Source: Kalaharituber pfeilii
Taxonomy: Eukaryota; Ascomycota; Pezizomycetes; Pezizales; Pezizaceae
Length of the DNA stretch: 64,000 nucleotides
Assembly: GCA_015179045.1 (NCBI GenBank)
Contig: WHUZ01000066.1
Coordinates: forward strand, 186,001-250,000
Direction: 5' to 3'
Shown one piece after another: positions 5,641 through 59,524 of this stretch (position 1 is the first letter of the stretch; every line of letters starts with the position of its first letter). The translations under genes were made by a program, and so were the position numbers. The notes below the pieces were generated by a model. The model had not been told where the DNA came from and ran no database searches. It worked only from the letters and a program-made list of their open reading frames with translations.

Positions 5641-5695
5641 GGTTTGGGCTCGGCTATAGTTCACGGTTGTCAGTCCACTCTGTTGCCCTGCCATG

Positions 5696-5749
5696 GCGAA
5701 CAGCTACAAGCGGGGTCACGTGAAATTAAAAAAAAAAAAAAAAAAAAAA
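5696..5749 (+). mobile_element. Family-A micro-retroposon (54 bp)
   Basis: It consists of CCCTGCCATGGCGAACAGCT, then ACAAGCGGGGTCACGTGAAATT and about 21 A. It is bounded by a perfect 13-bp TSD GTCCACTCTGTTG at 5683-5695 and 5750-5762. The 5' end coincides with the base of the predicted CCCTGC/GCGGGG stem. The body is the terminal ~40 nt of LINE-2. It has no coding capacity and was presumably mobilised by a LINE-2 enzyme. Confidence 0.93.
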
Positions 5750-6135
5750 GTCCACTCTGTTGCGAGCCTGCGGCAAAGGGGGAGGGGGGAAGCAGTAAAA
5801 GGAGGGCTGAAGGGGGGAGTGGGTGTTGAAAGACGGACAGATTTTCTCTCTACTTAGCTTACCCTGAATGGGATAATATCCAAGTGTCTGAAATATGGCT
5901 TCCTAGTTTGTGTAGGTGTGGCCCGATGGGATAGTGATGTGCGATCCGGATGTCCGTATAATTGTCGAAGTAGAGTTGGGGTGGATGTGTTATAAGAGGG
6001 CGATGGTGTCACGAGAAAGTCTAAAGGAGCGCCAAGCCCGCCTCACTCCTGGTCGCTATTCTCACTTCCGGTCACGGCCCTTCGGAAGATGTGTTTCCTG
6101 TCGGAACATGTGCTTTCTTTCGAGAGAATTAAATA

Positions 6136-10545: not shown

Positions 10546-12058
10546 CAAAATCGACTTGTGGGTCTGACACTGGACTGGGAGCTAAAATACCACACACATC
10601 ACAAGAAGCGACTACATCTCGCCAAAGCAGCCTGGGGCGTTGCCTCGAGACTAATGCGGATAGTACCAGCAAAGAAGCGTCAAATCTACACCAGCATCGC
10701 ACGCAACATCGCCACCTGGGGCAGCTAGGCATGGAAAGAGTATGCACACGCTCCAGGAAACACGGACCTCAAATTGAACGAACTAGAACGATAGCAATAC
10801 ACCGCAGCACAGACGATTACTGGTGCACCCTGGGGAACGAGGCGAGACCTGGTCAAAGGACTGGCAAACCTGGAATCGGTCCACACATTTATAGACGGAG
10901 AATGTACCAGGGTAGAAGCCAAAGCTCTACGGTTCCAGGACGAGCGACTCAGGAGGGAACAGCAAGACCACAGATACTTGAGGGGAACTCTAGGCCACCG
11001 CTCCAAGCCTGCCTCCGGGCTTTGAGGGTCTAGACCCAGGGGCCCTGCCTTGGCGAACAGCTGCATGCGGGGTCACGTGATATTAAAAAAAAAAAAAAGG
11101 GGACACCGCTCCCCCTCCCGCTGGCAGTACTCCCCACCCTCCCAAGGAATACCGATAAAGAAGAATGGGAAAGGACTATCACCACCGCCGAAGACGAAGG
11201 AAATAGCTTCTACACCGATGGAAGTCGGATTAACGGCTTCACAGGAGCGGGATCCTTTCACGGCGGGGCGCAATCTTCCATTTACTTAAGCACCCAGAGC
11301 ACGGTTAACGACGCGGAACTAATTGCCATGAGCCAGGCATTAACCCACCAAGAAGGGGAAATCCTGATAGTGTCCGACTCAAAGTAGCCATAAACAAACT
11401 TCACAGAATTGCCAATGGCGAACCCACCCACGAGGGCGCAGCTCAGCTGGTACGAGAACGATGGGAAGCAAGAGCCAACCGAGGCGACCTGGACGTTGCG
11501 GTGCTGTGGGTAAAAGGACATGTGGGAGTCAAAGGCAATACCGAAAGGCGACAAGATCGGAGTTTTCCTCCAATACCAGGACGAGACAGTAACCTTAACC
11601 GAGACAGGCATGAGACAATCCACAAGGTCACGGAGAGCCGAAGAATGGAACAGACTCAACCTCGACTACAGACCATTGCAACGACTGGGCCGTAGAGTCG
11701 CCACGCTGGCCAGAATCCTTGGGGGTAAAGTACTCAGACACTGGAAGCACAAGGTTGGCACCGAAGACAGCCCGGAGTGCCGCTGGTGCGGAGAGAACTT
11801 GGAGACCACCGCACACATCCTGACGGAATGCAAAGTATGGAAATGCAAATGGCCGGGAGGAGAAACAGACCTCGCAAGACCCCCGAAAGAGGGAGACAGA
11901 GACACTTGATGGAATTGCTGGAATGGGTGGAACGCTAGGGTGCACTGGGGAGTTGTAGTTCATTTATTCCTTATTTATTTTTCCTTAATTATGTAACTGA
12001 ACAATCCTTGCCATAGCCCATAGGGCGGCATGCGAGTACTGATATTTTTTATAAAAAA
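10546..12058 (+). mobile_element. LINE-1b, 5'-truncated, nested in gag
   Basis: It begins in the distal RT/connection region (LVGLTLDWELKYHTHHKKRL, then AKAAWGVASRLMR). It runs through RNase H (YTDGSRING near 11200, NDAELIAMSQAL near 11310, then a stop after VSDSK) to the knuckle CRWCGENLETTAHILTEC near 11780-11833. It ends in family-B tail GGGCGGCATGCGAGTACTGAT with a short A tract at 12050-12061. Several frameshifts separate the domains (11520-11909 holds the longest C-terminal frame). The flanking gag coding sequence fixes both boundaries; any TSD is only a few bases (AAC). Confidence 0.88.
11005..11100 (+). mobile_element. Family-A micro-retroposon inside LINE-1b (96 bp)
   Basis: The LINE-1b sequence is interrupted between RT and RNase H by the last ~80 nt of LINE-2. 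These include the hairpin GGGTCTAGACCC, the core CCCTGCCTTGGCGAACAGCT, GCGGGGTCACGTGATATT and about 15 A. The TSD is GGCCACCGCTCC (10993-11004) and GGACACCGCTCC (11101-11112), one mismatch. It starts about 40 nt upstream of the usual family-A 5' end, so it records a longer version of the same tail. Confidence 0.9.
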
Positions 12059-15460: not shown

Positions 15461-15471
15461 TGCCCTTGCCC

Positions 15472-15523
15472 TTTTTTTTTTTTAATATCATTAATCGCGT
15501 GCCGCCTATGGGCTATGGCGATA
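15472..15523 (-). mobile_element. Family-B micro-retroposon (52 bp)
   Basis: On the minus strand it reads TATCGCCATAGCCCATAGGC, GGCACGCGATTAATGATATT, then the poly(A) (12 T on plus). The TSD CCCTTGCCC lies at 15463-15471 and again from 15524; the locus has a third tandem CCTTGCCC, so exact limits are uncertain by a few bases. The 5' end lies at the base of the ATCGC/GCGAT stem. Confidence 0.88.
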
Positions 15524-15529
15524 CCCTTG

Positions 15530-16690
15530 CCCTTGCCCTATCATCGATAAATTCCTCCAACGGATGTAAGCGAACAATCCCATATTCAGGGATCGCATTC
15601 AACATGCTGTCCCTAGGTCGATTCGTCGTTTTTCATTCGCTGCCTTTCTTGCATGATCGAGTGATTAGTTCCGGAATCGTGGATCTGTTATCGAAACGGG
15701 TCAGGAATGGATAAACAATAACGCTAGGAGATGCCAGTAAACACCTGGATGCGAGAACTTCAAGGGGGATCTCAGAAATGAGAGTGGATATTGTCTAGTT
15801 TGCAACATAGGGGAAGGGGTTGCTGTTGTGGTTGACTAGACCTGCCTAGATGCTGAGACCAAAAATTGGGCGTGTCGAGGATATAATTGGCAAATTTTTG
15901 TCGAATTGGCAGCCATCCAAACCTACTATTGGATAATAGGTCAGGGTAACGGACATCGCTCAAGCAACAGACGCACAATCTCGGCAGACGATGGATGTAT
16001 CGCGGAATTGGTGATATCGACGTAGCGTGATTTATAGATTCGTTAAATACATTGGATTGGAATTCTAGAGCTAAAGAATGTCAACAAAGTGCTTACCAGA
16101 ACCTAAACAAAAACAGGCCACGAAACCTCGTTGCACAGCGAATGAACATCAAACAAAAAGAGTGGAGTATACTTCAACTAATACAATGGGAAGAAAAAAA
16201 ACGAATACGTTGGCTTGATACAAGACTAAAGAGAACGCATAAACTGCAGTGTAAGGGAAAACAAAAAACTCTGTAGGTTTCACGATATAAACGAATGAAG
16301 AAGAACGAGAAGAAACGAAACCAAACAAACATAAAAAGCGAATATAAAGTATAAAGGTATGAAAATAGATGGGCCCATCTTGAAACAAGAAATTGCAAAC
16401 GCAATATATTAAGGAAGTTAAGAAAGCTAAACCGGGATCCCTATACAAAATCAGGTAAGCCCAAATACACAACTTCAAATTTCACCTGCCCTCTCCACTC
16501 CTGAAACCCTTCACCGTCACACAGGCGTGCCGAGGAACTAATTCGCAAAACGAATTCCTGTACACCAAAGATGATTAGCTTGAAGCTTGAAGTATTCTCG
16601 TCTGGGTGGATCAAACCGCCTGCACTGGCTCTCGAGCGTCACTGAGAAGCAGTTGAACCAAATTGAGTTTGGGTGATTGGGGCCGAAGGA
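15530..16690. other. No convincing gene
   Basis: Only overlapping short ORFs on both strands (for example 16052-16276 plus, lysine-rich, against 16149-16478 minus, Phe/Tyr-rich). These are typical of purine-rich low-complexity DNA rather than genes. Nothing recognisable. Confidence 0.45.
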
Positions 16691-22620: not shown

Positions 22621-22925
22621 AATGATAAACGAAACAGTTGAATTTCAATTCATTAGGACATGTAGAGAATTGGTTGAATAGACCTCGCATCAGGACCCTA
22701 CTGTTCTCGATAGGGACATAGAATGCACATATTCATGTGGCAACCATGGCGGTAATACATCTAGTCATGCCTCCGTCTTTTTTTTTTTTTTTTTTTTTAA
22801 TATCACTACTCGCTTGCCACCCCTGCTGGCTATGGCGAGGTTATTTACAAAATGAAATAATGGAAATGAAAGTAAATAGACGTGCAAAAGAAGACCCTGA
22901 CCCCCGAAAACCCCTTGAAATATAT

Positions 22926-23744
22926 CTAGGGGCTTGCCCAGGTGAGCATGCTCACCAGTTCGTCCTCCCCTGTCTCTCCCCTATGTTCCTTTGTCTTTTC
23001 CTTTCCCCTCGGCCATCTTCGTTTCCAGACTCTGCATCTATCCCATATGTGGTCCCTCGTCTCTTCTGCTTCACCGCACCAGCGGCACTCCAGTGAGTCC
23101 GTTTTTTGGATCTTGAATTTCCAGGAGTTCAGGGCTTTTCCGCCCAGTAACCCCGCCAGGGTTCCTGTCAGCGTGCCTAGCCGTTTTAGTGGCCTGTAGC
23201 TCATGCTGAGTCGGTTACACTCTTCGGCTCTTCGGGCTTTGTATTCCATTCGGATGCTGGCCTCTGTCACAGCCTCCATCTGGTACTGGAGGAAGGCTCC
23301 GGTCTTTGCCGCTCGGTCGGCGCTTTCATTGCCCTTGATGCTGATATGTGCCTTTGTCCACATGATTGCGACGTCTATTCCTCCCCATTCCATTCTTGCT
23401 TCCCACGCATTCTTCACACTCTGTGCTGGGCCTCCCAGTGTTGGTCGACTTTCAGCTATGTGTGTGATGCTCTGGATTGCGGCCTGGGAGTCTGTGAGGA
23501 TTAGTAGCTCATCCTCTCCGGTTTTCAGTGCCTTCGCCGCCGCTATCAGATCTGCGTCGTTCACGGTTGCTCGTTTCCCCAGGTAGAAGTACTCGTGTCT
23601 GGAATCTGATCTCCATGTTCCTAATCCCGTTCGGCCCTCAATCCGGCTACCGTCTGTATAGACTGGCGTCAAGCCTACTTCTATCTCCTCGTCGATGTGC
23701 TTTTCCCATTTCGGACGATCTGCGTCCTTGCTGGGTGACTGCAT
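22926..23744 (-). CDS. LINE-1c RNase H + zinc-knuckle C-terminal frame (272 aa)
   Basis: This open C-terminal part of ORF2 shows RNase H motifs: YTDGSR (Asp31), NDADLIAAAKAL (residue 65, Asp where the family has Glu), LTDSQAAI (Asp85) and GNESADRAAK (Asp143). The zinc knuckle is CRWCGEAEETRDHIWDRC (Cys220, Cys223, His232, Cys237). In the element RNase H would degrade RNA of the RNA-DNA hybrid during target-primed reverse transcription. The first Met is not a real start; the frame continues from RT, interrupted by a stop near 23790. The Glu-to-Asp change may itself reduce activity. Confidence 0.85.
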   Translation of the reverse strand: MQSPSKDADRPKWEKHIDEEIEVGLTPVYTDGSRIEGRTGLGTWRSDSRHEYFYLGKRATVNDADLIAAAKALKTGEDELLILTDSQAAIQSITHIAESRPTLGGPAQSVKNAWEARMEWGGIDVAIMWTKAHISIKGNESADRAAKTGAFLQYQMEAVTEASIRMEYKARRAEECNRLSMSYRPLKRLGTLTGTLAGLLGGKALNSWKFKIQKTDSLECRWCGEAEETRDHIWDRCRVWKRRWPRGKEKTKEHRGETGEDELVSMLTWASP

Positions 23745-24488: not shown

Positions 24489-24721
24489 CTAGTACTGGTT
24501 TGACTCCTATCAATAAAGCACCGAAGACAGCAGTGAGCCCTGCAGGGTGCAATCTGTCATCTTGGCTGTGCCTCTCCTCTTCCCATCCCAACTAATTCCG
24601 AACTCAGTGGGTTGAAGGAAACCGTTTACGAATGCTGCTAGGTTCGGGTCCCGTGACATAATCTATGCAACGACTCTTTTTCTTCTCCCGAAGTTGAACG
24701 GCGAATGCCATCACCTACTAG

Positions 24722-24780
24722 ATCGCCATAGCCTACAATGCGGCATGCGATCAATGATATATTAAAAAAAAAAAAAAAAA
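24722..24780 (+). mobile_element. Family-B micro-retroposon in LINE-1c (59 bp)
   Basis: ATCGCCATAGCCTACAATGC, GGCATGCGATCAATGATATA and an A tract. The TSD is TCACCTACTAG (24711-24721) and TCACTTACTAG (24781-24791), a single C/T difference. It starts exactly at the ATCGC/GCGAT stem and opposes the host LINE in orientation. The inner helix is weaker here (GCCT...GCGGC). Confidence 0.93.
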
Positions 24781-25000
24781 TCACTTACTAGGGCTGTCCA
24801 TTCCCCCTTGTCTAGCCTGTCATGGAGCTCCTTGAGTATCTGTCTCCATAGGTCTTCAGTCTTCGGTGCCTCTGTTCGGTCATCCTCCCAGCTGGTTCTG
24901 GTTGGAAGGGTGGTTTTTGGTTTGGAGTATGTTGGCCACCACTTTTTGTCCCAGTTTTGTGAGTGTATTTAGTAGGGTTATTGGGCACCAGCTGTCCGGT

Positions 25001-27628: not shown

Positions 27629-27689
27629 TGTGTCCGGGTGCTGATGTGGTGTGCAGTGGGTGACGATTCAGGTTGTAGTGACGTCATTA

Positions 27690-27865
27690 GAGAGAATGGG
27701 TCACCACGGGGCGACAATGGCGGGACTATTGGGCGGAAAAGGACTGCGAGCCTGGCGTCACAGAATAGGCAAAAGCGACGGTCCGGACTGCCGGTGGTGC
27801 GGGGAACGAGAGGAAACGACGAGTTACCTACTAGACGAATGCCGGGTCTGGATAGCCGTGCAACC
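27690..27865 (+). mobile_element. LINE-1 zinc-knuckle fragment abutting LINE-2a
   Basis: The plus strand encodes GLLGGKGLRAWRHRIGKSDG and PDCRWCGEREETTSYLLDEC, then RVW, the C-terminal knuckle region of LINE-1 (here Leu replaces the usual His after SY). It joins LINE-2a endonuclease sequence at about 27866 and lacks a LINE-1 tail. It therefore probably represents a LINE-1 copy invaded by or recombined with LINE-2a. Confidence 0.7.
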
Positions 27866-28596
27866 CAAGTGGAGAAAGGAGGAGATAGAGGGTTTACAAA
27901 CGGGGATTACGAAGGAGTGGGATAGGAAGAAGGGGTTTGTAATGGGGGATTGGAATGCACACCATGCGGAGCGGGGCATGGAGGGGGTTCAGGACAATGG
28001 AAGGGGGACAGCGCTGAAAGAGTTCTTCGAAGGAGATGGGTGGGAGTTAGTGAGCGAAAGAGGGGCAGCAACGTGGAGAAGAGAAAGGGGAGGGAGGATA
28101 CAAGAGTCGACCATAGACCTGTGCTGGGGAAAGGGGATGGGGGAGGGGGAGAGGAGACATTCCTCGGCTCGGACCACGCAGCCATCGGGGTGCGCTGGGA
28201 AAAGGAGGGGGAGGTGAGGGAGAGTCGGAGGAAACGAGTGAATTTCGAGGAGGTGGAGGATTTAGTGGAAGAAATGGAGGAGTGGGATGGGGAGAAGAAG
28301 GAGAAATGGATGCAGAACCTACCAGGCGAAACTCTGTACGAGAAACTCATAGGTTTCAAGCAAAGGCATAGCCGGGAAGCGAGGATTTGCAGGAGGAATA
28401 AGAAGTGGTGGTCCAAGAAACTAACGGACTTGCGGAAGAAGGCGACGGCGGAAGGGAGAGGGGGGACGGGACAGGGAGCGAAAGGGATGGATCCGGAAAG
28501 GTACAGGAGATGGAAAGAGGCGAACAGGACCCTCAAGGCGAATATCAAAAAAGAGAAAGAAGAATGTTGCAGGGCCTTGACAGAAGAGATGGGGGA

Positions 28597-28661
28597 TTTT
28601 TTTTTTTTTTTTTTTTTTTTTTATTTCATTAATCGCATGCCGCCTCGAAGGCTATGGCGAT
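28597..28661 (-). mobile_element. Family-B micro-retroposon in LINE-2a (65 bp)
   Basis: On the minus strand: ATCGCCATAGCCTTCGAGGC, GGCATGCGATTAATGAAATA and about 26 A. A perfect 13-bp TSD AAGAGATGGGGGA lies at 28584-28596 and 28662-28674. The inner helix is GCCT/AGGC instead of GCCC/GGGC, a compensatory change. The insertion brings a stop codon into the LINE-2a RT frame. Confidence 0.95.
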
Positions 28662-28666
28662 AAGAG

Positions 28667-29299
28667 ATGGGGGAGAAAGACCCGTGGGTGGTAGCTAGGG
28701 TAGCCTGGCAGTTGAAGGGGACGATGGGGAAGATGAAGGGCGAAGGGGGAGAGGAGCTGGAGACGGACCGAGAAAAGTGTGAAGCACTCATCGAGAGAAA
28801 CTTCCAGTGGAGGGAAGAGGGGGAGAGGGAAGAGGGGGAGAGGGAAGAGGGGGAGAGGGAAGAGGGGGACATGGAGGAGAGGGGTCCGGGATATAAGACA
28901 GAAGAACTAGTGATAGAGTTGAAGGAAGCGTTGAAGGGGACAAGCAACATATCAGCGCCGGGAGCGGATGGGATTTCGTACAAGCTCATAAAGCTCGTTA
29001 TAAAAACCCCACTGGGGGCCCAGCTCATGTGGCAACTGGCTGGGGAAATGGCGAAAGGGAGGACCTCGGAAGAGTGGCAATTAAGCAAGGTGGTAATGAC
29101 CCCCAAGCCTGGAAAAGACAAGACGCAGGTAAGGGGATGGAGACCGATTAATCTGATTAACTGCGTGGCTAAACTGGGGGAGAAGGTGGTGGCAAGCGAA
29201 CTCCAGGAAGCGGAGCATCTGTTTGACAGGCATCAGTTCGGAGGCCGAAGGGGACGAAACGCGGCGGAAGCAATGATGAGGGCGGTCACCAAGACATAA
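28667..29299 (+). pseudogene. LINE-2a reverse transcriptase N-terminal frame
   Basis: A 210-residue frame resumes immediately after the micro-element TSD. It holds a tandem 15-bp repeat (28808-28870, EEGER units), then the RT fingers region ISAPGADGISYKLIKLVIKT, WQLSKVVMTPKPGKD, RGWRPINLINCVAKLGEKVV and HQFGGRRGRNAAEAM. It ends at a TAA at 29297-29299, after which the palm blocks follow in other frames. The enclosing copy is dead. Confidence 0.85.
28808..28870 (+). repeat. 15-bp tandem repeat within LINE-2a
   Basis: About four copies of GAAGAGGGGGAGAGG encode EEGER repeats. LINE-2 sequence on either side is continuous, so it is a local slippage expansion. Confidence 0.85.
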
Positions 29300-31555
29300 A
29301 GGTGCTTGGCCAGAAAGGGGGGGCGATATGGAGCCTGGACGATGTCAAGGGAGGCTTTAACAACGTAAGAAGGGAGGAGGTACTGAGGAGGATCCAAAAG
29401 GATGGGAAGGTGAGGAGGTGGGGAGGATGGCTGAAGGACTTCTTTCGGGGAAGAGAGTTCACGGTGGAATGGGATGGGAAGGTGAGGGGAAGGGGGAGGG
29501 CCAACGTCGGTATGCCACAGGGGTCGTCTCTGTCACCAGTCATTTTTCTAATATAGTTGGCACTGATGCTAGAGGAACTGGAAAAGACCCTGAAAACCCA
29601 GCTACCAGAACTGGAGTGTGAAGTCCCACCTTATGTAGACGACATCAATGTAACAGAATAGGACTGGGAGGGGATAAAGGACCAGGAGAGATTGAGAGTT
29701 CGGGTAGGAAACATAGTGAAGAAGGTGGCGGAGGAAATGGGGGTTCCGCTAGAGGCAACGAAGCACGAAGGCAGTCTTCGGGTGGGGCAAGAGGAGGAGA
29801 AAGGAGGTAGAGAGGGGGAAATGGCTCAGAGTAATCTTCGACGCGACACTGGAATTCAATTTCTACTGGAAGGCGAGGATCGAAAAGGCCAGGAAGCTCA
29901 CTGGAGCGATGATGGGACTAGGCGCGGGACAATGGGGAATGAGCCCGAGGAGCTGGCGACAGTTATATACGGGGATGATAAGGGCAGTGATGATATGGGG
30001 GGGAGATAGGATAGAGGGGACAGAAAGAGTGGAAGAAAGAGATGGAGAAAATTCAGTACTAGGTACTGAAGAAGCACACAGGCGCAGTCCACGGGGCAGC
30101 GAAGCAGAAGGTGAACTGGATCGCCGGAGTGGAGTGCGGAGACAACCCTGGACGCCGCACAGGCGAGGTTTGTGGCGAGGAGCATAGGGGACCATAGTGG
30201 TTGCGGAGATATGTGGTCTGCAGATTTTAGAGGAGAAGAGGAAGAGGAGGAGAGAGGTAGAGATTGGAGGGACTGGGAGGCAAGCTGGACGACTCAAAAA
30301 GGGGACGGGTTCGGGTCGTTGGCAGGAGGATGCAGAGCCAAGTGAGTTTCATCATGCCAGAGGAGGTGGAGGAAATATTAAGGGGTGAAGAAGCTGAGGT
30401 AGAGGAACTGCAGAGGGAGGGGCAGAAAGGAGGAGGCTGAGAGGAGTGGGAGGCCTCCATCTTTTGGGTAACGCAAGGGAGAGGAGCAGTATATACAGAC
30501 GGAAGCATGAATGAGAAGGGGAGAGTGGGCGGGGGATATTGGAGATGGGACGGCGGAGGAGAGGAAGAAATGGGAACAGGTGCGACAGTGTGGGACGGAG
30601 AGATCAAGGGAATGAGGAAGGGGGTGGAAGAAGCAATCCTGGCTCCGGCAAACTTAGTAATCCTAACAGACTCATAGGCAGCAATCGCGGCGGTAAAGAA
30701 GGCGGGGAGAACGGGAAAGGCGCGGACTAGAGATCTAAAGACAGTGGTGAACTTGATGGCGGAGAGAAAAGGGAGGGGGGGGGTACATCAACCTCATGTG
30801 GGTCAAGGCACACATTAGCATTGCCAGAAACGAGGCGGCGGACGTCGAGGCGAAGAAAGCAGCAGCGAAGATTGGGAAGCCGGTAGTAATGGAAGGCGGG
30901 CTGCGGCAGAAGTGGAAGAAACTGCACACGGCGGAGAGGAGAGAAGCCGGGTATGGAGGGGGTTCAGTGATGAGGTGGAGCAGGGGAGCAGCTACCACCT
31001 TCACCAGGCTGAAAACGGGGAAGGAGGTAGGGAAGGAGTGGGAAATAAAAATAGGGAAAGCAGAGGGGAGAAGTGTATGCGGGTGTGGGGAGAAGCATAA
31101 ATACGTTCTAATAATGGTTGATGAATGCTCCAGGTGCACGAAAGTAGCGCTGATGGAGTTGTCCTTTTCTTTTTTAACTTGGTGGGGAGGGATTATTTAC
31201 TCTTCAGTATTCCTAATAATTATTCTCCCTCTCTATTTTGTTCTCTCTTTACATCAATGGCGATGAGAAGATGAGGGGGTGCTGGCTTTTTTGCCGCGTT
31301 TGTTGTCCACCCGAGGTAGCTTCTACCATTTGAAGTTGTTACTGTATTTACAATCAATTCAATTGCGCTTGCTGTGATTCCGTCGGATATTAGTTCCCCC
31401 CCCTTATCGCCCTAAGACCTGCTTCCATATCCAAACTTTGCACGAGATGGGCACCATTCAATCTAATATTCGTTTCAACGCTCATATACAACGTTGGTCA
31501 GGCGTGGCCGTAGTCCCAAATCGGCAAGTAAAGGTATGCAATAGCGGACACTCTG

Positions 31556-33450: not shown

Positions 33451-34050
33451 TACGGTGTCCAAGGAGATTGCTACGGGCTGGGAATCTCGCAAAACTTTGG
33501 TATTAGAAACGTCTAGCATGCTCTTCTGCTCTGAAGAGTCTCAGCGCGGTGGACACATGGCAGGATTTGCACAGCTTGAGCCTCGTCTTGGGAAATCCCC
33601 CAAAACGGGAATGATGCGTACCACAATAGGACCACTACTACCCGAGTGCCTAAGTAAAGGCTCAAATACATCCTTCCTCCGGAACCTGTGCAATCACACC
33701 AAAGTATTTTGAAACCAACTCTTTTAGTCGTCAGTCTCCAGCACTACTTTCCTACAATAAATGCGCGCAAATGACGAAATATCTGTGTGGACCAACTCGA
33801 GGTTATACCGAGACAGTCGCTGGGCATATTGTGTGTGGGAGTTCTGTTATCAGGCAGTACTATGTGTGTTCTGTGAAAAGGAGTACAGAGGAATAGGCTC
33901 AGAGATGTGTGTATTCGATTCTAATGATCAATCAAGAACGGGGCTCCCAGAGCCCATATATATACAAAAACTCTATAACACGAAGTTGCATACAAAACCA
34001 GTGAACAGAACAGCTAAGTATTTGGACTGCCTAATATGGAATACTCAGTC

Positions 34051-34162
34051 CGGAGTGCTTAGGCCATCGCGGATGTTCGGAGTGCTTAGGCCATTGCGGA
34101 TGTTCGGAGTGCTTAGGCCATTGCGGATGTTCGGAGTGCTTAGGCCATCGCGGATGTTCGGA
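34051..34162 (+). repeat. 27-bp minisatellite, four copies
   Basis: The unit CGGAGTGCTTAGGCCATYGC followed by GGATGTT is repeated four times in tandem with only C/T differences. The plus-strand frame gives GVLRPSRMF repeats within a 158-residue ORF (33761-34237) that is not otherwise recognisable, so I do not call a gene. Confidence 0.9.
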
Positions 34163-35204
34163 TGTTTTACACACTCGGACTGTTTCGCTCGGACTGTTTC
34201 GCGTGTGTTCGACCCTTGGTTTCTAACATGTTCGTAATGGCTATGCACCTATCGCGCTTAGCATTACGACACACACGATTGTGAAATTTTAACCCAGGTG
34301 GTGGACGTCCCTATTTGAGTTACTTATTCGAGACTGGTTTCACTACTGTTGCTGCACATATATGCCACACGGAAAGAAATGCCAATGTCCATCAGTGTGT
34401 TGTTTGGAATTGATTGAATCTCACAGTGTGACATTCAATGTTCCCTAGAAAATTATGAGAACAGTGTCATTGGATCCTGTTTACTGCTCTGTTACTAGTG
34501 CGTGTGGGAGATCAATTTGAGTTTAGTATAGGTTCACATTGAATTTGGGAGAATTCGATCAGGGAAACGGGGGAGAGAGAAGAGGGAAGGGGAGAGGGGA
34601 AGGGGGAAGGGGAGAAGGAGAGAGCGTGCTACAGGGAGCTTGCCACAGCACCATACCTTAATGCACTGGCCCATGCTTAAGTTCACAAAAAAACGGTGGT
34701 GTGAGTGGCAACTTATGTGTTGATATTATCGTTGCAGAAACTTTAAGACCCCACAAGCAATTGAGAATCCAACAAGATGTGCGGATATACAGATTGCGTT
34801 TTGCAATCAAATGTCTCGATACACACCACCTTTTGGGCAAGGATGTTGCACCAAGGCACAAATGCGAACAGGGTGGATTCCCACCTGCTATATATTCCTC
34901 CCCTCTTCCTCGCCAACTTCCTTCCCTTTCCATTTCTCATCAACACACTCCTCCTCCGGCTCAAATACTACCCTCCCACAGTCCGGCCGGCCATGCAGCC
35001 GGCTGCGGCCAGTATGATTACCATCAACGCTTCTGGAGCCCCTGCTCTCCTCATGCTCTCCCGCCCTGGTGGCCCTTCGAAAGACCTCTTTCCACTTCCT
35101 CTTTCCTCTCTTCTATCCAAAAAGAAGGGGAAATGAAAAATATATAATATATATATATACCCCCGACTCTCACCCCAGTCCCAGGCAAAGGGAACCAAGC
35201 TCTC

Positions 35205-41186: not shown

Positions 41187-41192
41187 GAAGTG

Positions 41193-41197
<5 letters not shown>

Positions 41198-41239
<42 letters not shown>

Positions 41240-41283
41240 CCTAATCACGTAACCCCGCTTGCAGCTGTTCGCCATGGCAGGGC
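41198..41283 (-). mobile_element. Family-A micro-retroposon with long poly(A) (86 bp)
   Basis: On the minus strand: GCCCTGCCATGGCGAACAGC, TGCAAGCGGGGTTACGTGAT, TAGG and about 42 A, the longest homopolymer in the window. The TSD is GAAGTGTGATT (41187-41197) and GAAGCGTGATT (41284-41294), one transition. The long unbroken tail suggests a young insertion. Confidence 0.92.
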
Positions 41284-41405
41284 GAAGCGTGATTAGAAAT
41301 GGGTATTTGGTCAGCCAGCGTCTGGTTACGAGACTAGGTCCCCCGCTCCTAGGGCCCAAGTGTACCGTTTCATGCCTTCGCACTCCGTGATTAGTATGGC
41401 GCCTT

Positions 41406-41466
41406 GCCCTGCCATGGCGAACAGCTACAAGCGGGGTCATGTGATATAAAAAAAAAAAAAAAAAAA
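41406..41466 (+). mobile_element. Family-A micro-retroposon (61 bp)
   Basis: GCCCTGCCATGGCGAACAGC, TACAAGCGGGGTCATGTGAT, AT and about 19 A. A perfect 12-bp TSD GTATGGCGCCTT lies at 41394-41405 and 41467-41478. It starts one base before the CCCTGC stem. Confidence 0.96.
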
Positions 41467-42156
41467 GTATGGCGCCTTCCGGAACGTCCATCTGCTTCGC
41501 CGTAAACTGCCAAAGTGCCTAAAGGACTTTGCGGGATGAGATTTTCGCTGCTTCCAACTTTGCCAGAATCTCTTCCCATACGTAGGGGGCCGGAGGGGCG
41601 GGGCGGTCCCTGTGGCTTTCCGTGTCACGGTCTTCTCCGGCACCATATTGGTAGTCTGCTATCTATATGCGCTGCTGCATGTTGGTCTTGATATGGAAAT
41701 AATTATTGGGATGGAGTAAGACTGGAAATAAACACCGAGCTCTGGTAGTGTTACATTGCGAACAACCTAGCGCGCGGCCTAGCCGACCTACTGGGCGCGC
41801 TGGGAAGTTCCAGACCCTCCTAGCGTCGCAACGTGAAAAAAATAATAATACGTAAATCACGTGCGCGCCGTAGCGGCTGGGCACGAGACTACTAATTGAC
41901 GTCCATACGTTCGGTGCCTCTTTTTTTTTTTTTTTTTTTTTTTTAATCACATGACCCCGCATGCAGCTGTTCGCCAAGGCAGGGCCCCTGGGTCTATGAT
42001 AGACCCTCAAAGCCCGGAGGCAGGCTTATCTACCTAACTCTTCCACCGCCACCTCTACAAACGAAAACTTTTCTCCCCTCCCCGCCCCACCTCCCCGGGG
42101 CAATAAACATATCCTCCGCCGCCACCTTCAAACAAACGAGACTTCACCCCCTCCCC

Positions 42157-42910
42157 TTACATCTTCAGCGACCCAAAAAATCCTCCCAACACATCCACCA
42201 TCTCCACGTTCTCCTGCTGTTTCAGCCATTTCTTCTCATCTATGTCTTCCCATCTTCCCCATCCTTCTGGATACTCTATCTCCTCGCACCTGAATGCCAG
42301 GTGGTCCGCCGTCTGTCTCTGGCCGCACTCGCACCTGCTCCCTTCCTCCGCCTTCCCTATCTTAATGTCCCACTCTTCTCCCATCCCCTTCCCCGTCCTC
42401 ACCCTGGTGAAGGCAGTGGCTGCCCCCCTGCTCCACCTCATCACCGACCCCCCCCGTACCCCACTTCTCTCCTCTCCGCTGCGCGCAGTTTTTTCCACTT
42501 CTGGCGCAAACCTCCCTCTGTCACCACTGCCTTCCCTATCCTGTCCGCCGCCTTTTTTGCTTCGGCGTCCGCCGCCTCATTGCCGGCGATGCCAATGTGC
42601 GCCTTCACCCACATCAGCTTGACGTCCCCCCCCCTCCTCCTTCTTTTCGCAATCTCATCCACCACCCTCTTTAGGTCCCCGGTTCGTGCCTTCCCTGTCC
42701 TTACCGCCTTCCTCACCGCCGCAATCGCTGCCTGTGAGTCCGTTAGAATGACCAGGTTAGCCGGTGCCAGTACCGCTCTCTCCATCCCCTTTCTCATGCC
42801 CTTCACTTCTCCATCCCATACCGTCACCCCGTCCCCATTTCTTCTCCCCCTCCCCATCCCATTTCCAATACCCTCCCCCACCCTCCCTTTCTCGTTCATG
42901 CTACCATCTG
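42157..42910 (-). pseudogene. LINE-2b RNase H and zinc-knuckle frames
   Basis: Two overlapping frames (42441-42899 and 42157-42498) give RNase H: CTDGSMNEKGRVGEG (just upstream of the first Met), LTDSQAAIAAVRKAV, and LMWVKAHIGIAGNEAADAEA with the final Asp. A frameshift near 42470 follows, then SVMRWSRGAATAFTRVRTGK and the knuckle CECGQRQTADHLAFRC (C-x-C-x7-H-x4-C) and the stop. This one-residue spacing of the first Cys pair separates LINE-2 from LINE-1 (CxxC). Confidence 0.87.
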
Positions 42911-43854
42911 TGCATACCGCCCCTCCCCCTTGTGTCGCCCAAAAGATTGAGGACTCTCACTCTTCCACGCCCCCCCCCTCTACGCCCTTCTCTCACCACT
43001 TCCTCCACCTCTACTTTTGAGCACCTCCCTCCCCATGACACCTCGTCAACCCCTTCCGGCATGACAAAGCTCACCATACTCTGTGTTCCTGCTACTGACT
43101 CAAAACCGTCCTTCTTTTGCGCCGCCCATCCTACACTCCAATCTCTCCAGTCCCTACCCTGCTCCTCCACGTCCCCTTCTCCTCTGAAGTCCTCAGTCCA
43201 AATGTCACCGCAGCCTTCTGGATCTCCCATACTTCTCGCCACCAGCCTCGCCTGTGCGGCATCCAAAGCTGTCTCCGCACTCTCCACTCCGGCAATCCAT
43301 TTGACCTTCTGCGCTGCTGCTCCGTGGACTGCGCCCGTCGCCTTCCTCAGTACCTGGTACTGAATCTTCTCCATTTCTCTTCTCCACTCCTTCTGTCCAC
43401 GCCATCCGATCTCCGACCCCCACATCATCACTGCCCTTATCATCCCCGTAGACAACTGCCTCCCACTTCGCGGGCTCATACCCCACTGTCCTGCGCCCAC
43501 CCCCATCATCGCGCCAGTGAGCTTCCTCGCCTTCTCTATCCTCGCCTTCCAATGGAAATCGAAATCTAGAGTTGAGTCGAAGATGACCCCCAGCCATTTC
43601 ACCTTCTCTACCTCTCTCCTCCTCCTATTCCCCTTTCCAAACACGATGTCCTCGTGTTTTGTTTGCTCCAGAGGCACCCCCCACTTGTCTGCTACCTGCC
43701 GCGTGATCCTACCCAGCTTCACTCTCAGTCTTTCTTGGTCCCTCGTCCCCTCCCAGCCCCATGCCGTTACATTGATATCGTCCACGTATGACGGGACTTC
43801 GCACTCCACCTCCGGGCATTCCTTCCTCAACGTCTCCTCCAAGTCCTCCACCAT
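42901..43854 (-). pseudogene. LINE-2b reverse transcriptase C-terminal frame (317 aa)
   Basis: Begins just before SYVDDINVTAWG (YVDD catalytic box). It continues LEQTKHEDIVFGKGNRRRRE, VKWLGVIFDSTLDFDFHWKA, MMGVGAGQWGMSPRSGRQLS and VLRKATGAVHGAAAQKVKWI, the palm-thumb region of non-LTR RT. The frame drifts out of the RNase H frame near 42960, where a TGA also replaces a Trp codon relative to LINE-2a. The first Met is not a biological start. Confidence 0.87.
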
Positions 43855-44188: not shown

Positions 44189-44198
44189 ATATGAGCCT

Positions 44199-44259
44199 AT
44201 CGCCATAGCCCTCAGGGCGGCACGCGATTAACGATATTAAAAAAAACAGAAAAAAGTTG
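44199..44259 (+). mobile_element. Family-B micro-retroposon (61 bp)
   Basis: ATCGCCATAGCCCTCAGGGC, GGCACGCGATTAACGATATT and an interrupted A tract. The TSD ATATGAGCCT lies at 44189-44198 and 44260-44269. It starts exactly at the ATCGC/GCGAT stem; the inner helix is GCCC/GGGC with loop TCA. Confidence 0.9.
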
Positions 44260-44274
44260 ATATGAGCCTTTTCT

Positions 44275-45184: not shown

Positions 45185-45242
45185 TTTTTTTTTTTATATA
45201 TATCATTAATCGCGTGTCGCCCTTAGGGCTATGGCGATAATG
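45185..45242 (-). mobile_element. Family-B micro-retroposon (58 bp)
   Basis: On the minus strand: TTATCGCCATAGCCCTAAGG, GCGACACGCGATTAATGATA, TATAT and an A tract. A short TSD AGACTA lies at 45179-45184 and 45243-45248. The 5' end lies two to three bases from the ATCGC stem. Confidence 0.85.
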
Positions 45243-50101: not shown

Positions 50102-50160
50102 TTCTGGTGGTGTTAGCTTGTGGATGATGGCAATAAGAACACTTTTTTTTCCCTTCGTAT

Positions 50161-50200
50161 ATAGGGCGGCATGCGAGTACTGATATATATAAAAAAAAAA
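50161..50200 (+). mobile_element. Truncated family-B micro-retroposon (40 bp)
   Basis: Only ATAGGGCGGCATGCGAGTAC, TGATATATAT and 10 A are present: the 3' arm of the hairpin without its 5' arm. The TSD is TTCCCTTCGTAT (left, to 50160) against TTTCCTTCGTAT (50201-50212), with one difference. It lies just upstream of the 49430-50101 gene on that gene's minus strand, so it may sit in its 5' UTR or promoter. Confidence 0.9.
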
Positions 50201-50214
50201 TTTCCTTCGTATTC

Positions 50215-53427: not shown

Positions 53428-53682
53428 AGTGAATAGGAAGAATGAATCGGGAGAATGAAAGATGAAGATGAAGAAGGTAGAAGGAATTTCTTATACCGGT
53501 TGGTGCAGCATCACCGTTTCTAAGCATCTCCCACGCCCCTGGACTTGCCCTCACTGTGTGTATGTAACCCAGCACTGCCTATATCACCATACGACCCTCG
53601 TGACCTCGACGTCTGAGCCCAGCGTCAGCACAGTAGTAGTAGCTTATTTTTTTTTTCTTTTTTTTTAATATCATTAATCGCG

Positions 53683-54732
53683 TTTTTTTTTTTTTTTTTT
53701 TTTTTTTAATTTCGTTACTCGCGTGCCGCCTGGTAGGCTACGGCGAGGTGTTAGGTACATAAAGGACAAATAGTAACTGATAAATCATAAAGAGAAGTAG
53801 AGTGTGTGAAACAAAGAAACTAGCTCGCTGCCCAGTCCAACACCTCAACCAGTTTCATCCCCTCCTTCTCCCCTCTTTCTTCTTCCCCTTCTCCCCCCCT
53901 TTGGCATCTTCATCCTCGCCTCGCCTCCCGGTAATCTCTTCTTCCACGCCTCACAGTCTTTTGTTATGTGTCTGTAATTCTCGAGGGCTTTTCCACACCA
54001 CATGCACTCCGGTGACTCTTCTTTTCCTATCTGGTATCTCCATTGTCTCAGTCCTTTGTCCCCCATTATGCCTGCGAGTGTGGACACCCTCCTTCTGGTC
54101 CCCAGGTATTCCAGTGGTCTGTACGTCAGTTGTAGTCTCTTTCTCTCCTCCCCTCTCCTGTTCTTTGCCTCTTGTCGGATGCCGGCCTCCGTCACCGTCT
54201 CGTCCTGGTATTGTAACGCCGTGGCTACTTTGGCCGCCCTGTCCGCCTCGGTGTTACCCACTATCCCTTCATGTGCTTTAACCCACAGGAGCGCCAGGTC
54301 CCAGTCCCCTCTCGACGTCCTCTCCTCCCACCTTCTCCTCACCAGCTCCGCTGCACCCTCCGGCGTAGGGTCCCCCCTGGCTATCCCCTTCATTCTCGTC
54401 ACCGTGGTCCTGGAGTCTGTGATAATTAGCAGCTCCCCCTCTCTTCGAATTGCCTCCCCAGCCGTCATCAGCTCAGCATCATTGACCGTGCATCTTTCTC
54501 CCAGGTATATTGATGTGTCTTCCCCGGTCTGATGCACTCCAGTGCCTGTCTTGTCCCCCATTCTACTTCCATCCGTGTAAATCCTTGTCCACCCTTCATC
54601 TTCCTCCTTAGCTATTAGCCTCTCCCACTCCTCCCTGCCTAAATCAGATGGATGTATCGGGTGTACATGGAGAGGAAGGGGGTCTTTATGCTCCAGCGAC
54701 CCCCTCAGGTATCTGGTATCTGGCTGTGGTCT
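53683..54732 (-). mobile_element. LINE-1f, 5'-truncated, nested in a micro-element
   Basis: On the minus strand the copy begins before RNase H (EEWERLIAKEEDEGWTRI, then YTDGSRMGDKTG near 54560-54590). It runs through the knuckle to the tail CCTCGCCGTAGCCTACCAGG, CGGCACGCGAGTAACGAAAT and about 25 T on plus at 53683-53707. The inner tail helix is GCCT/AGGC, as in the micro-element at 28597. No TSD is evident for the inner insertion, which may have involved a small deletion of target sequence. Confidence 0.88.
53845..54561 (-). CDS. LINE-1f RNase H and zinc-knuckle frame (238 aa)
   Basis: This open frame continues upstream into YTDGSR without a biological start. Motifs are NDAELMTAGEAI (catalytic Glu retained), ITDSRTTV (Asp), WVKAHEGIVGNTEADRAAK (Asp) and knuckle CMWCGKALENYRHITKDC (C-x2-C-x8-H-x4-C). 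It is among the least damaged LINE-1 RNase H frames here, and a useful reference for the Glu-to-Asp change in LINE-1c. Confidence 0.85.
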   Translation of the reverse strand: MGDKTGTGVHQTGEDTSIYLGERCTVNDAELMTAGEAIRREGELLIITDSRTTVTRMKGIARGDPTPEGAAELVRRRWEERTSRGDWDLALLWVKAHEGIVGNTEADRAAKVATALQYQDETVTEAGIRQEAKNRRGEERKRLQLTYRPLEYLGTRRRVSTLAGIMGDKGLRQWRYQIGKEESPECMWCGKALENYRHITKDCEAWKKRLPGGEARMKMPKGGRRGRRKRGEGGDETG

Positions 54733-55580: not shown

Positions 55581-55961
55581 ACATTTTCTTTTTGCGGCTG
55601 ACGCCAGATGCTACAAGTATGTATCCGTTCACATGGACCTTTCTCTTTACTCAGAGTTTTCAATCTAGCTTTGATTGTGACAAAAAACCTCCCTTCGTAC
55701 GCCACCATGCATGCACCAGCCAACTGTCGGCCCATAGCTCATAGACATTGTCCTTAGCAATGTTATTTTCCAATAAGCAACCTGCTCCAGTTGCAACTTC
55801 GCCAGGATCCTGGTTCTGAGGATTCCCCGTTCATTAGTGACCTACCATCGACATAGATAATTCTTCAGACTGAGACACCAGCCTTCTCTTGACCTGGTCG
55901 CTCTACTGGCAATGATTTTGTTTGGGACTACTTACCAACTACGCACGATGCTGCAGGAATG

Positions 55962-56016
55962 CCCCGCCATGGCGAACAGCGGCAAGCGGGGTTATGTGAC
56001 AAAACAAAACAAAAAA
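55962..56016 (+). mobile_element. Family-A micro-retroposon (55 bp)
   Basis: CCCCGCCATGGCGAACAGCG, GCAAGCGGGGTTATGTGACA and an AAAAC-type tail. A perfect 15-bp TSD GATGCTGCAGGAATG lies at 55947-55961 and 56017-56031. The stem is CCCCGC/GCGGGG, fully Watson-Crick where most copies have a U-G. Confidence 0.97.
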
Positions 56017-56430
56017 GATGCTGCAGGAATGGTAGAATTGTGGCAGCTGCCTTCAGCCAAGGCCCTACTAGAGTCGGAAGCAGACTTATGAGGCTTGAGC
56101 TCCAGAACCACAGTCTCTAGCTGTAGTGTCTGGTTCCCTCAGCATTCTTGCAACAGCTCGATTTCCTATGTTAGTGGGCTCAGACCAAGTACCTGTTGTG
56201 ATGATCGCATTCCGGAGATGTCTTGCTTTGCCCTTACCACATACCTGCGCAAATACCTGGAAAACATTTTCTACACATGCACAGGCATGGGACCGATATG
56301 AAGATATCGCCCAAGTGAAAGCTGACCCAGCACCAAAGCACTGTATGGGACGAGAGGTCGTAGCACAAAGGGCGTGATTAAGGTCGATTTGTGATTAAGG
56401 CTCAAACACTCTCAGGTATGCCAACAATCA

Positions 56431-56541: not shown

Positions 56542-56796
56542 ATGATTTGTTTTTTTTTTGCTGACGCCACTTCCCCACATACTACAACCTTTTATTCGTC
56601 CACTTGTACTGTTGCGGTTCAGAAAAGTCAAGCTAAGAAAACCTCACTTCAAAGCGACGACGTAAAAAACCTTGATTATATTTAGAAACTAAAAGCAAAC
56701 GTGTATTCTAATTCAGCCATGAACGGCTCTCACCTGGGAGCCTTCTTTTGGGGGGGGGGAGGGGGGGAGTTACATAGCCCTCGCCTGAAGCTCGAG

Positions 56797-56861
56797 GCCC
56801 TCCCGTGGCGAACAGCTACAAGCGGGGTAACGTGACAAAGAAAAAAAAACAAAAAAAACTT
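56797..56861 (+). mobile_element. Family-A micro-retroposon (65 bp)
   Basis: GCCCTCCCGTGGCGAACAGC, TACAAGCGGGGTAACGTGAC and an A-rich interrupted tail. The TSD is GAAGCTCGAG (56787-56796) and GGAGCTCGAG (56862-56871), one transition. The 5' end coincides with the usual hairpin start. Confidence 0.9.
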
Positions 56862-56946
56862 GGAGCTCGAGCACCAGCTGATGTAAATTTCTAAGGAATG
56901 ACTTGCCCTAAGGCTGAACTCAATGAACAGCGTCTGTAGATATGAG

Positions 56947-57003
56947 TTTTTTTTTTTTTTTTATGATACCATTAATCGCGTGCCGCCCTATGGGCTATGG
57001 CGA
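56947..57003 (-). mobile_element. Family-B micro-retroposon (57 bp)
   Basis: On the minus strand: TCGCCATAGCCCATAGGGCG, GCACGCGATTAATGGTATCA and about 16 A. A perfect 12-bp TSD TGTAGATATGAG lies at 56935-56946 and 57004-57015. It starts at the hairpin base. Confidence 0.96.
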
Positions 57004-57019
57004 TGTAGATATGAGAGAT

Positions 57020-59040: not shown

Positions 59041-59152
59041 AACAGGGGTCTTGAAGACTACGATCAAGCAGGTCACTCCTGACGCCCACAGCGACTGCGT
59101 ATTTTAGCAATGTAGGTTTGGCTTTAAGCGCACTACATTAGGATCATGGTAG

Positions 59153-59214
59153 CCCTGCCATGGCGAACAGCTACAAGCGGGGTCATGTGATATAAAAAAA
59201 AAAAAAAAAAAAAA
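59153..59214 (+). mobile_element. Family-A micro-retroposon (62 bp)
   Basis: CCCTGCCATGGCGAACAGCT, ACAAGCGGGGTCATGTGATA, TA and about 21 A. A perfect 12-bp TSD GGATCATGGTAG lies at 59141-59152 and 59215-59226. Nearly identical in sequence to the one at 41406, so both are probably young. Confidence 0.97.
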
Positions 59215-59524
59215 GGATCATGGTAGGGAGGGCTGTCTGACAAAAGGACTTGTCAGGGCTCTAGAATACTTTTTGAATTAGATGAGAGCAAAAGTTACAT
59301 GTATGCATTACCCTCCCCAACTACCGCAAATGCGGTACAAGACACTTAACTCACATGTTTGAAGGCTGCAAAATTTCTCAACTTGTAAATTCCATTTTCG
59401 AAAATAATAGCGAAATAGTCTAGTCAACAATGCTGTAGTCAAGTTGGTTTTGAATGTGAAATGGAATACTTTTGCTTCATCACTATTCTCCCAAAGCGCC
59501 CTGGAGCGTAGATTATACTCACCG

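Follow-up and report, generated by a model that had tools for sequence, protein, structure and literature searches.

The window (the whole stretch of 64,000 nucleotides of Kalaharituber pfeilii DNA analysed here) contains a dozen very short sequences, each consisting of a hairpin and a poly(A) tail between target-site duplications, and the question it raises is what sets the 5' end of insertions so small and, consequently, what RNA they were copied from. A sequence-only reading had listed six such units of a family A and six of a family B, all taken to begin at the 5' base of the same LINE 3'-terminal hairpin, and had suggested a discrete hairpin plus poly(A) RNA as their template. All 12 units were found at the sites it had noted, whose coordinates are loose, and the lead A unit is real, only its start lying at 5685, so that the 5696 first given falls 11 nt inside it. 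Duplications with a score of 8-15 flank 10 of the 12, the B unit at 45185-45238 having about 6 bp only and being unsupported when taken alone. Regarding the starts, 10 of the 12 are at -25 when bases shared with the duplication are counted, position -25 being the hairpin's first paired base as numbered from the first base of the 3' arm, and the B unit at 15472-15523 begins about 4 nt upstream of it. These units are given below together with one longer-class A unit and one B insertion of a secondary class.

5672-5763, forward strand: family-A micro unit; hairpin and A tail at 5685-5748, 15-bp duplications at 5672-5686 and 5749-5763
10996-11112, forward strand: longer-class family-A unit; start at -62, the 5' base of the upstream hairpin AAGCC...GGCTT, with a 9-bp duplication
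15461-15539, reverse strand: family-B micro unit; 12-bp duplication, start about 4 nt upstream of the hairpin
24710-24791, forward strand: family-B micro unit; 12-bp duplication with one mismatch
28584-28674, reverse strand: family-B micro unit; 13-bp duplication; a broken LINE copy has its endonuclease piece on one side of the unit and its reverse-transcriptase piece on the other
41187-41294, reverse strand: family-A micro unit; diverged 11-bp duplication with one mismatch, score 8
41393-41478, forward strand: family-A micro unit; 13-bp duplication
44189-44269, forward strand: family-B micro unit; 10-bp duplication
45185-45238, reverse strand: family-B micro unit; duplication of about 6 bp only
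50152-50212, forward strand: family-B insertion of the secondary class; start at -12 in the hairpin loop, 9-bp duplication
55947-56031, forward strand: family-A micro unit; 15-bp duplication
56789-56871, forward strand: family-A micro unit; 8-bp duplication, score 8
56935-57015, reverse strand: family-B micro unit; 12-bp duplication
59140-59226, forward strand: family-A micro unit; 13-bp duplication

The size of such insertions was assessed by a scan in which the hairpin sequences were unused. Over 264 kb, i.e. the 64-kb window and the first 200 kb of contig 2, poly(A) runs of at least 8 were considered on both strands, a duplication was required on both sides with a score of at least 11 and an upstream reach of 420 nt, runs 45 nt or less behind a previous run as well as runs at locus ends were dropped, and downstream flanks were swapped among tails as a control. 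Strong duplications were present on 56 of the 216 poly(A) tails, against 1 in the swap control, and a whole or partial A or B tail ends 55 of these 56 insertions. The length before the poly(A) tail was below 10 nt in 1 of them, 10-29 nt in 6, 30-49 nt in 34, 50-89 nt in 3 and 90-420 nt in 12, the 34 insertions of the 30-49 nt bin comparing with about 3 that a uniform spread of ends from 10 to 420 nt would place there (binomial, 7e-31); the extreme smallness claimed for the units is thereby borne out. The micro unit measures about 39 nt ahead of its tail, and the duplications, with a median length of 12-13 bp, are variable in sequence. A tailless retropseudogene was considered and ruled out, as the micro copies carry a poly(A) tail with a median of 23 nt in A and 19 nt in B.

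At the lower extreme, no clear insertion in the scan is shorter than one made of 16 nt of the B tail and some 14 A's within a 13-bp duplication (contig 2, 30001-40000, L034, reverse strand, near reverse coordinate 2327; also present in L021). Besides, at 53644-53747 on the reverse strand and in L040 (reverse strand, near reverse coordinate 2997), pieces from the 3' part of the hairpins, with A-tails of their own, stand directly behind the A-tail of another unit, as if inserted there.

Both hairpins also terminate LINE copies, in line with the LINE origin ascribed to the units, and the single LINE hairpin of the earlier reading has to give way to two, A and B, similar in layout and each found in several LINE lineages. 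RNase H scores above cut-off in three LINE copies of the window that end in A or B, and a fourth, broken copy completes the set.

22778-23744, reverse strand: LINE copy; RNase H at 22926-23744, then the family-B hairpin and A tail at 22778-22838
27651-31266, forward strand: fourth, broken LINE copy; endonuclease at 27.5 bits (cut-off 27.4), an RVT_1 piece below cut-off and a weak RNase H piece, no A or B end being seen on this copy
41921-43854, reverse strand: LINE copy; region at 42901-43854, RNase H at 42441-42899, family-A hairpin and A tail at 41921-41985
53683-54561, reverse strand: LINE copy; RNase H at 53845-54561, then the family-B hairpin and A tail at 53683-53747

The region at 42901-43854 gave no Pfam match of its own and had 36 relatives in a protein search, reverse-transcriptase domains occurring in these relatives. 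Elsewhere in the window, an open frame at 33761-34237, in which the short repeat VLRPLRMFG occurs in tandem close to the end, is unconnected with the retroposons.

Several LINE lineages yield such copies. In the sampled DNA, long A copies display several types of 3'-UTR and long B copies varied upstream sequences. In a neighbour comparison that left out 24 A and 52 B unclassified copies, and in which the micro class was set by duplication score and the long class partly by upstream similarity, the nearest neighbour of a B micro copy was a long copy in 9 cases, a tie in 9 and another micro copy in 11, so that B is not one lineage; for the 39 A micro copies, it was a long copy in 3 cases, a tie in 29 and another micro copy in 7.

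The position of the 5' ends was determined in a wider sample comprising all the DNA read, about 363 kb and partly overlapping, with a duplication score of at least 9 within 420 nt and swap controls alongside. Among the A copies, some of which had been chosen by the A core, 47 of 97 reached this score against 5 in the swap control; among the B copies, 60 of 105 did against 7. The 47 A ends comprise 39 from -30 to -22, none from -31 to -61, 4 at -62 or -63, 2 beyond -63 and 2 inside the hairpin. The 60 B ends comprise 29 from -30 to -22, 3 from -31 to -61, 18 beyond -63 and 10 scored as inside the hairpin, among which 5 are at -14 to -9 near the loop and 2 (L023 and L046) are actually starts at the base with internal deletions. 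In the unbiased 264 kb alone, the ends at -30 to -22 amount to 13 of 16 for A and 25 of 52 for B. In other words, A is nearly all-or-none at the hairpin base and B has a pronounced peak together with a sparse scatter of other ends, which extends out to -409. Within the B peak, 27 of the 29 ends deviate from -25 by 3 nt or less, and LINE sequence was matched by eye in 8 of the 11 B copies starting at -28 to -26. The start at the base of the arm is kept even in some copies with deletions internal to the hairpin, namely L042 and L048 for A as well as L023 and L046 for B. The second A size class measures about 75-85 nt and begins precisely with the 5' base of the AAGCC...GGCTT hairpin (10996-11112 in the window; L010, L016, L027, L033 and L063). 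The clustering at the hairpin base that had been noted in the window is consequently sharp in A and less so in B, where 31 of 60 ends are outside -30 to -22.

For A, the ends could be followed over the whole assembly (78.03 Mb, 360 contigs), where the exact A core occurs 1,301 times and the reversed pattern not at all; the B ends were counted in the sampled DNA. The assembly also gave 38 Zn2Cys6 matches, against none in 14 control genomes, which points to a fungus. The genome-wide counts are of exact matches, which miss diverged copies, as well as copies truncated inside the hairpin that escape the core patterns, and are only roughly comparable with one another as the patterns differ in length. 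With this in mind, subtype CTACAA counts 567 copies of the hairpin core, 520 with G at -25 and an intact arm, 70 with the LINE's AGGGR immediately upstream (the next 4 nt), 73 reaching the AAGCC...GGCTT hairpin at -62 by a looser pattern, and 22 extending four nt past that hairpin, the 73 copies at -62 exceeding the 70 at -29 because the patterns differ in length and looseness. There is thus a step at -25, where about 87% of the copies end, followed by 37 nt without loss and by another step at -62, and the evenly spread 5' ends named beforehand as refuting are not what the genome holds for this subtype. Subtype CTGCAA carries AGGGR in 257 of 651 copies genome-wide, from which it appears that LINE lineages differ in the frequency of micro copies. 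On contigs 1 and 2, the A copies among the matches listed crowd into the first 0.5-0.7 Mb and thin out beyond it.

The start of subtype CTACAA is sharp to one base genome-wide. GG, that is G at -26 too, occurs in 124 CTACAA copies, about 68 of which make up the longer AGGGG class; subtracting these 68 from the 520 leaves about 452 short copies, a count resting on the sequence pattern and not on duplications, and only 56 of them (12%) have the LINE's G at -26, so that the A end displays no read-through. Extra bases between the duplication and -25 were present in 14 of 41 sampled A copies, matching the LINE in 2, mismatching it in 11 and being too diverged to judge in 1. Run-off by such enzymes typically adds untemplated bases at the end of the template.

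As regards structure, the LINE tail of family A folds into three predicted hairpins in a row. The outer stem of the terminal one is predicted at 7 bp for the unit alone; within the LINE it gains a predicted pair at -26, reaching 8 bp, which would place the observed end 1 nt inside the stem. Both A steps thus coincide with the 5' base of a predicted hairpin or fall 1 nt inside it, away from the 3' sides; for the middle, weaker predicted hairpin, between -25 and -62, none of the 47 ends is at -31 to -61. The B hairpin is predicted with a 5-bp outer and a 4-bp inner stem and is seconded by covariation, with 55 double-change cells against 20 in shuffles, none of 500 shuffles reaching 55 and slid registers giving 16-34. 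Over 102 B copies, C-G closes the outer stem in 52 and A-T in 26, and an inner pair is C-G in 65 and T-A in 15. For A, the observed pairing was reached by 47 of 500 shuffles and the double changes by 22 of 500, slid registers giving 5-17 against 4 for the true one, and the A hairpin is put forward as a structure predicted from folding. Of note, a B-type LINE tail in L011 (near 2367) has a hairpin seemingly with a large inserted inner stem.

The reading that accommodates best these data, and on which our confidence is evenly balanced, is that the insertions were copied in full from short pieces of LINE RNA whose 5' end had been produced, by trimming or cleavage, at the 5' base of the hairpin. 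The body of the LINE RNA would be removed by a 5'-to-3' exonuclease or by cleavage, the identity of the nuclease being a guess, and degradation would halt at the base of the hairpin, either because its stem is stable or because the LINE protein occupies it. What is left, hairpin and poly(A), would be the minimum needed by the LINE reverse transcriptase, and this remnant would be copied to its end from a nicked target by target-primed reverse transcription, with one to four untemplated bases sometimes added at the end of the copy. The second A class, from the hairpin at -62, would result from the same process stopped earlier, and the loop-starting B copies from RNA broken in the loop. A polymerase coming from the 3' end first meets the 3' side of each stem; the ends lie at the 5' sides of the stems, at two A hairpins and, for a few B copies, near the loop, and because of this they fit RNA ends better than polymerase stops. 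Against such fragments are the B ends, 31 of 60 being outside -30 to -22, the middle A hairpin devoid of ends (0 of 47 at -31 to -61), which a simple model of halting at every hairpin would not predict, and the LINE-matching bases of 8 of the 11 B copies at -28 to -26, as a small overshoot would give. As to the discrete template RNA of the sequence-only reading, it is the best fit to the sharp A ends, the mismatched extra bases and the second step at a hairpin, the RNA itself being what we infer from them. The micro unit also resembles a minimal template in the light of two other systems, since the zebrafish LINE protein is described as binding its own 3' stem-loop (PMC4176376) and the human L1 protein as working on a stem-loop whose A tract is 15 nt long (PMC10830416).

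The serious rival to copying of a complete fragment is drop-off just after the hairpin, i.e. abortive target-primed reverse transcription in which the enzyme would copy the anchoring hairpin of a long LINE RNA and release once it is unwound, host repair closing the gap and no short RNA being involved. It explains well the small B overshoot just mentioned, drop-off is given as the likely cause of 5' truncation in PMC2104539, and the human L1 stem-loop is said, in PMC10830416, to anchor the template. It is nevertheless considered possible rather than probable: A lacks templated overshoot, with G at -26 in 56 of about 452 short copies and extra bases that mismatch the LINE in 11 of the 13 judgeable cases, its second step is at the 5' base of another hairpin with no loss in between, and the loop-starting B copies, few as they are, are hard to account for in this way. 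A polymerase pause at the upstream hairpin is possible for A, the -25 end being only 4-5 nt from the weaker upstream hairpin, and unlikely for B, where the 25 nt upstream are predicted to be unpaired in the one LINE tail folded. Ordinary random 5' truncation, with short copies abundant as reverse transcription rarely gets far, agrees with the thin scatter of B ends to -409 and with the excess of short copies that is normal for LINEs; yet the absence of A ends at -31 to -61, a genome-wide count that forms a step and not a slope, and 29 of 60 B ends within 9 nt make it very improbable.

A sharp A end could equally be obtained from a dedicated transcript with a fixed start, A micro copies having 7 micro and 3 long nearest neighbours out of 39, with 29 ties. 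The corresponding explanation is a true micro-SINE, one or a few small loci transcribing a short RNA that starts at the hairpin base and forms a lineage of its own. CTACAA is mostly short (about 452 of 520), its commonest haplotype, of 31 nt, represents 15 of 46 sampled short A copies, and an exact 38-mer is common to 368 copies genome-wide, which all speak in its favour, longer copies being among those 368. It remains rather unlikely, as the CTACAA core is also carried by the 22 longer copies whose LINE sequence extends beyond both hairpins, so that a LINE-type source exists, as the same -25 start is found in other A haplotypes, as B micro copies have no lineage of their own, and as a search by consensus patterns located no pol III A or B box in any of 39 A or 29 B micro units. 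As the sole explanation, a single micro-SINE source was rejected, B micro copies being as near to LINE copies as to each other and the CTACAA core occurring in longer copies that contain LINE sequence. Finally, the reverse transcriptase could halt at a sequence motif, as proposed for GCC*A/U in Magnaporthe MGL, a fungal LINE with template-switching hot spots according to PMC2104539. GCCAT is present in both hairpins, but the motif predicts A ends at -17 and they are observed at -25, and it was rejected on position, its probability being close to nil.

Compared with known systems, the units have in common with stringent-type LINEs, such as ZfL2-1, ZfL2-2 and UnaL2, the 3' stem-loop, and recognition of the present hairpins by a LINE protein is putative, by analogy with what PMC4176376 reports. 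The difference is that here the stem-loop and A-tail occur on their own, in hundreds of insertions whose 5' end is sharp. To our knowledge, no class of hairpin-only insertions has been described for stringent-type LINEs. SINEs with LINE-derived tails, such as Mg-SINE with MGL, are likewise non-autonomous and share the 3' end of the partner LINE, the A-tail and the duplications. SINEs measure a few hundred nt, whereas the micro units, with about 39 nt before the tail, have neither the head derived from a small-RNA gene nor the pol III boxes. No tRNA, 7SL or 5S head was found in the units, and the Rfam scan of the window gave two tRNA matches, neither of them in a unit. By head and by promoter, the micro units are not SINEs, the unit being entirely LINE tail. 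With 5'-truncated LINE copies, they share an intact 3' end, the A-tail, the duplications and presumably the machinery. Truncation ends of LINE copies are usually scattered, whereas here a single structural point accounts for most of them, to the very base in A and with partial clustering in B.

The nearest precedent found for non-random boundaries is that of MGL and the MINE chimeras of Magnaporthe (WEIRD joined to MGL), which, according to PMC2104539, are fungal LINE copies with non-random 5' boundaries tied to predicted hairpins. MINEs are template switches that keep 230-5461 nt of LINE (PMC2104539), whereas the present units have no second RNA attached to them and start at the hairpin's 5' base, not at GCC*A/U. 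No shorter or hairpin-only class of retroposon was present among the literature matches listed, whose coverage is partial and includes few subscription papers.

When a LINE copy is 5'-truncated, it is usually unclear whether the enzyme let go or the RNA was already broken, and the ends described here are sharp and frequent enough to make a decision between enzyme release and RNA breakage possible. Elements this short fall under the usual length cut-offs of repeat annotation, and comparable insertions in other places may have escaped notice for this reason. Were the template a free fragment, about 40 nt plus a tail would be the least RNA that a LINE mobilises in nature, and the decay products of LINE RNA would be a source of insertions. 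A free RNA of about 60 nt, hairpin and poly(A), cut from LINE messages and itself mobile, would rank below all other self-contained retroposons in size, and the 3' hairpins of LINEs would then serve as processing sites by which decaying RNA gives rise to hundreds of insertions; this view is tentative, and we hold it to be slightly less likely than not. Should the insertions indeed be copies of such fragments, the hairpin itself would be the mobile thing.
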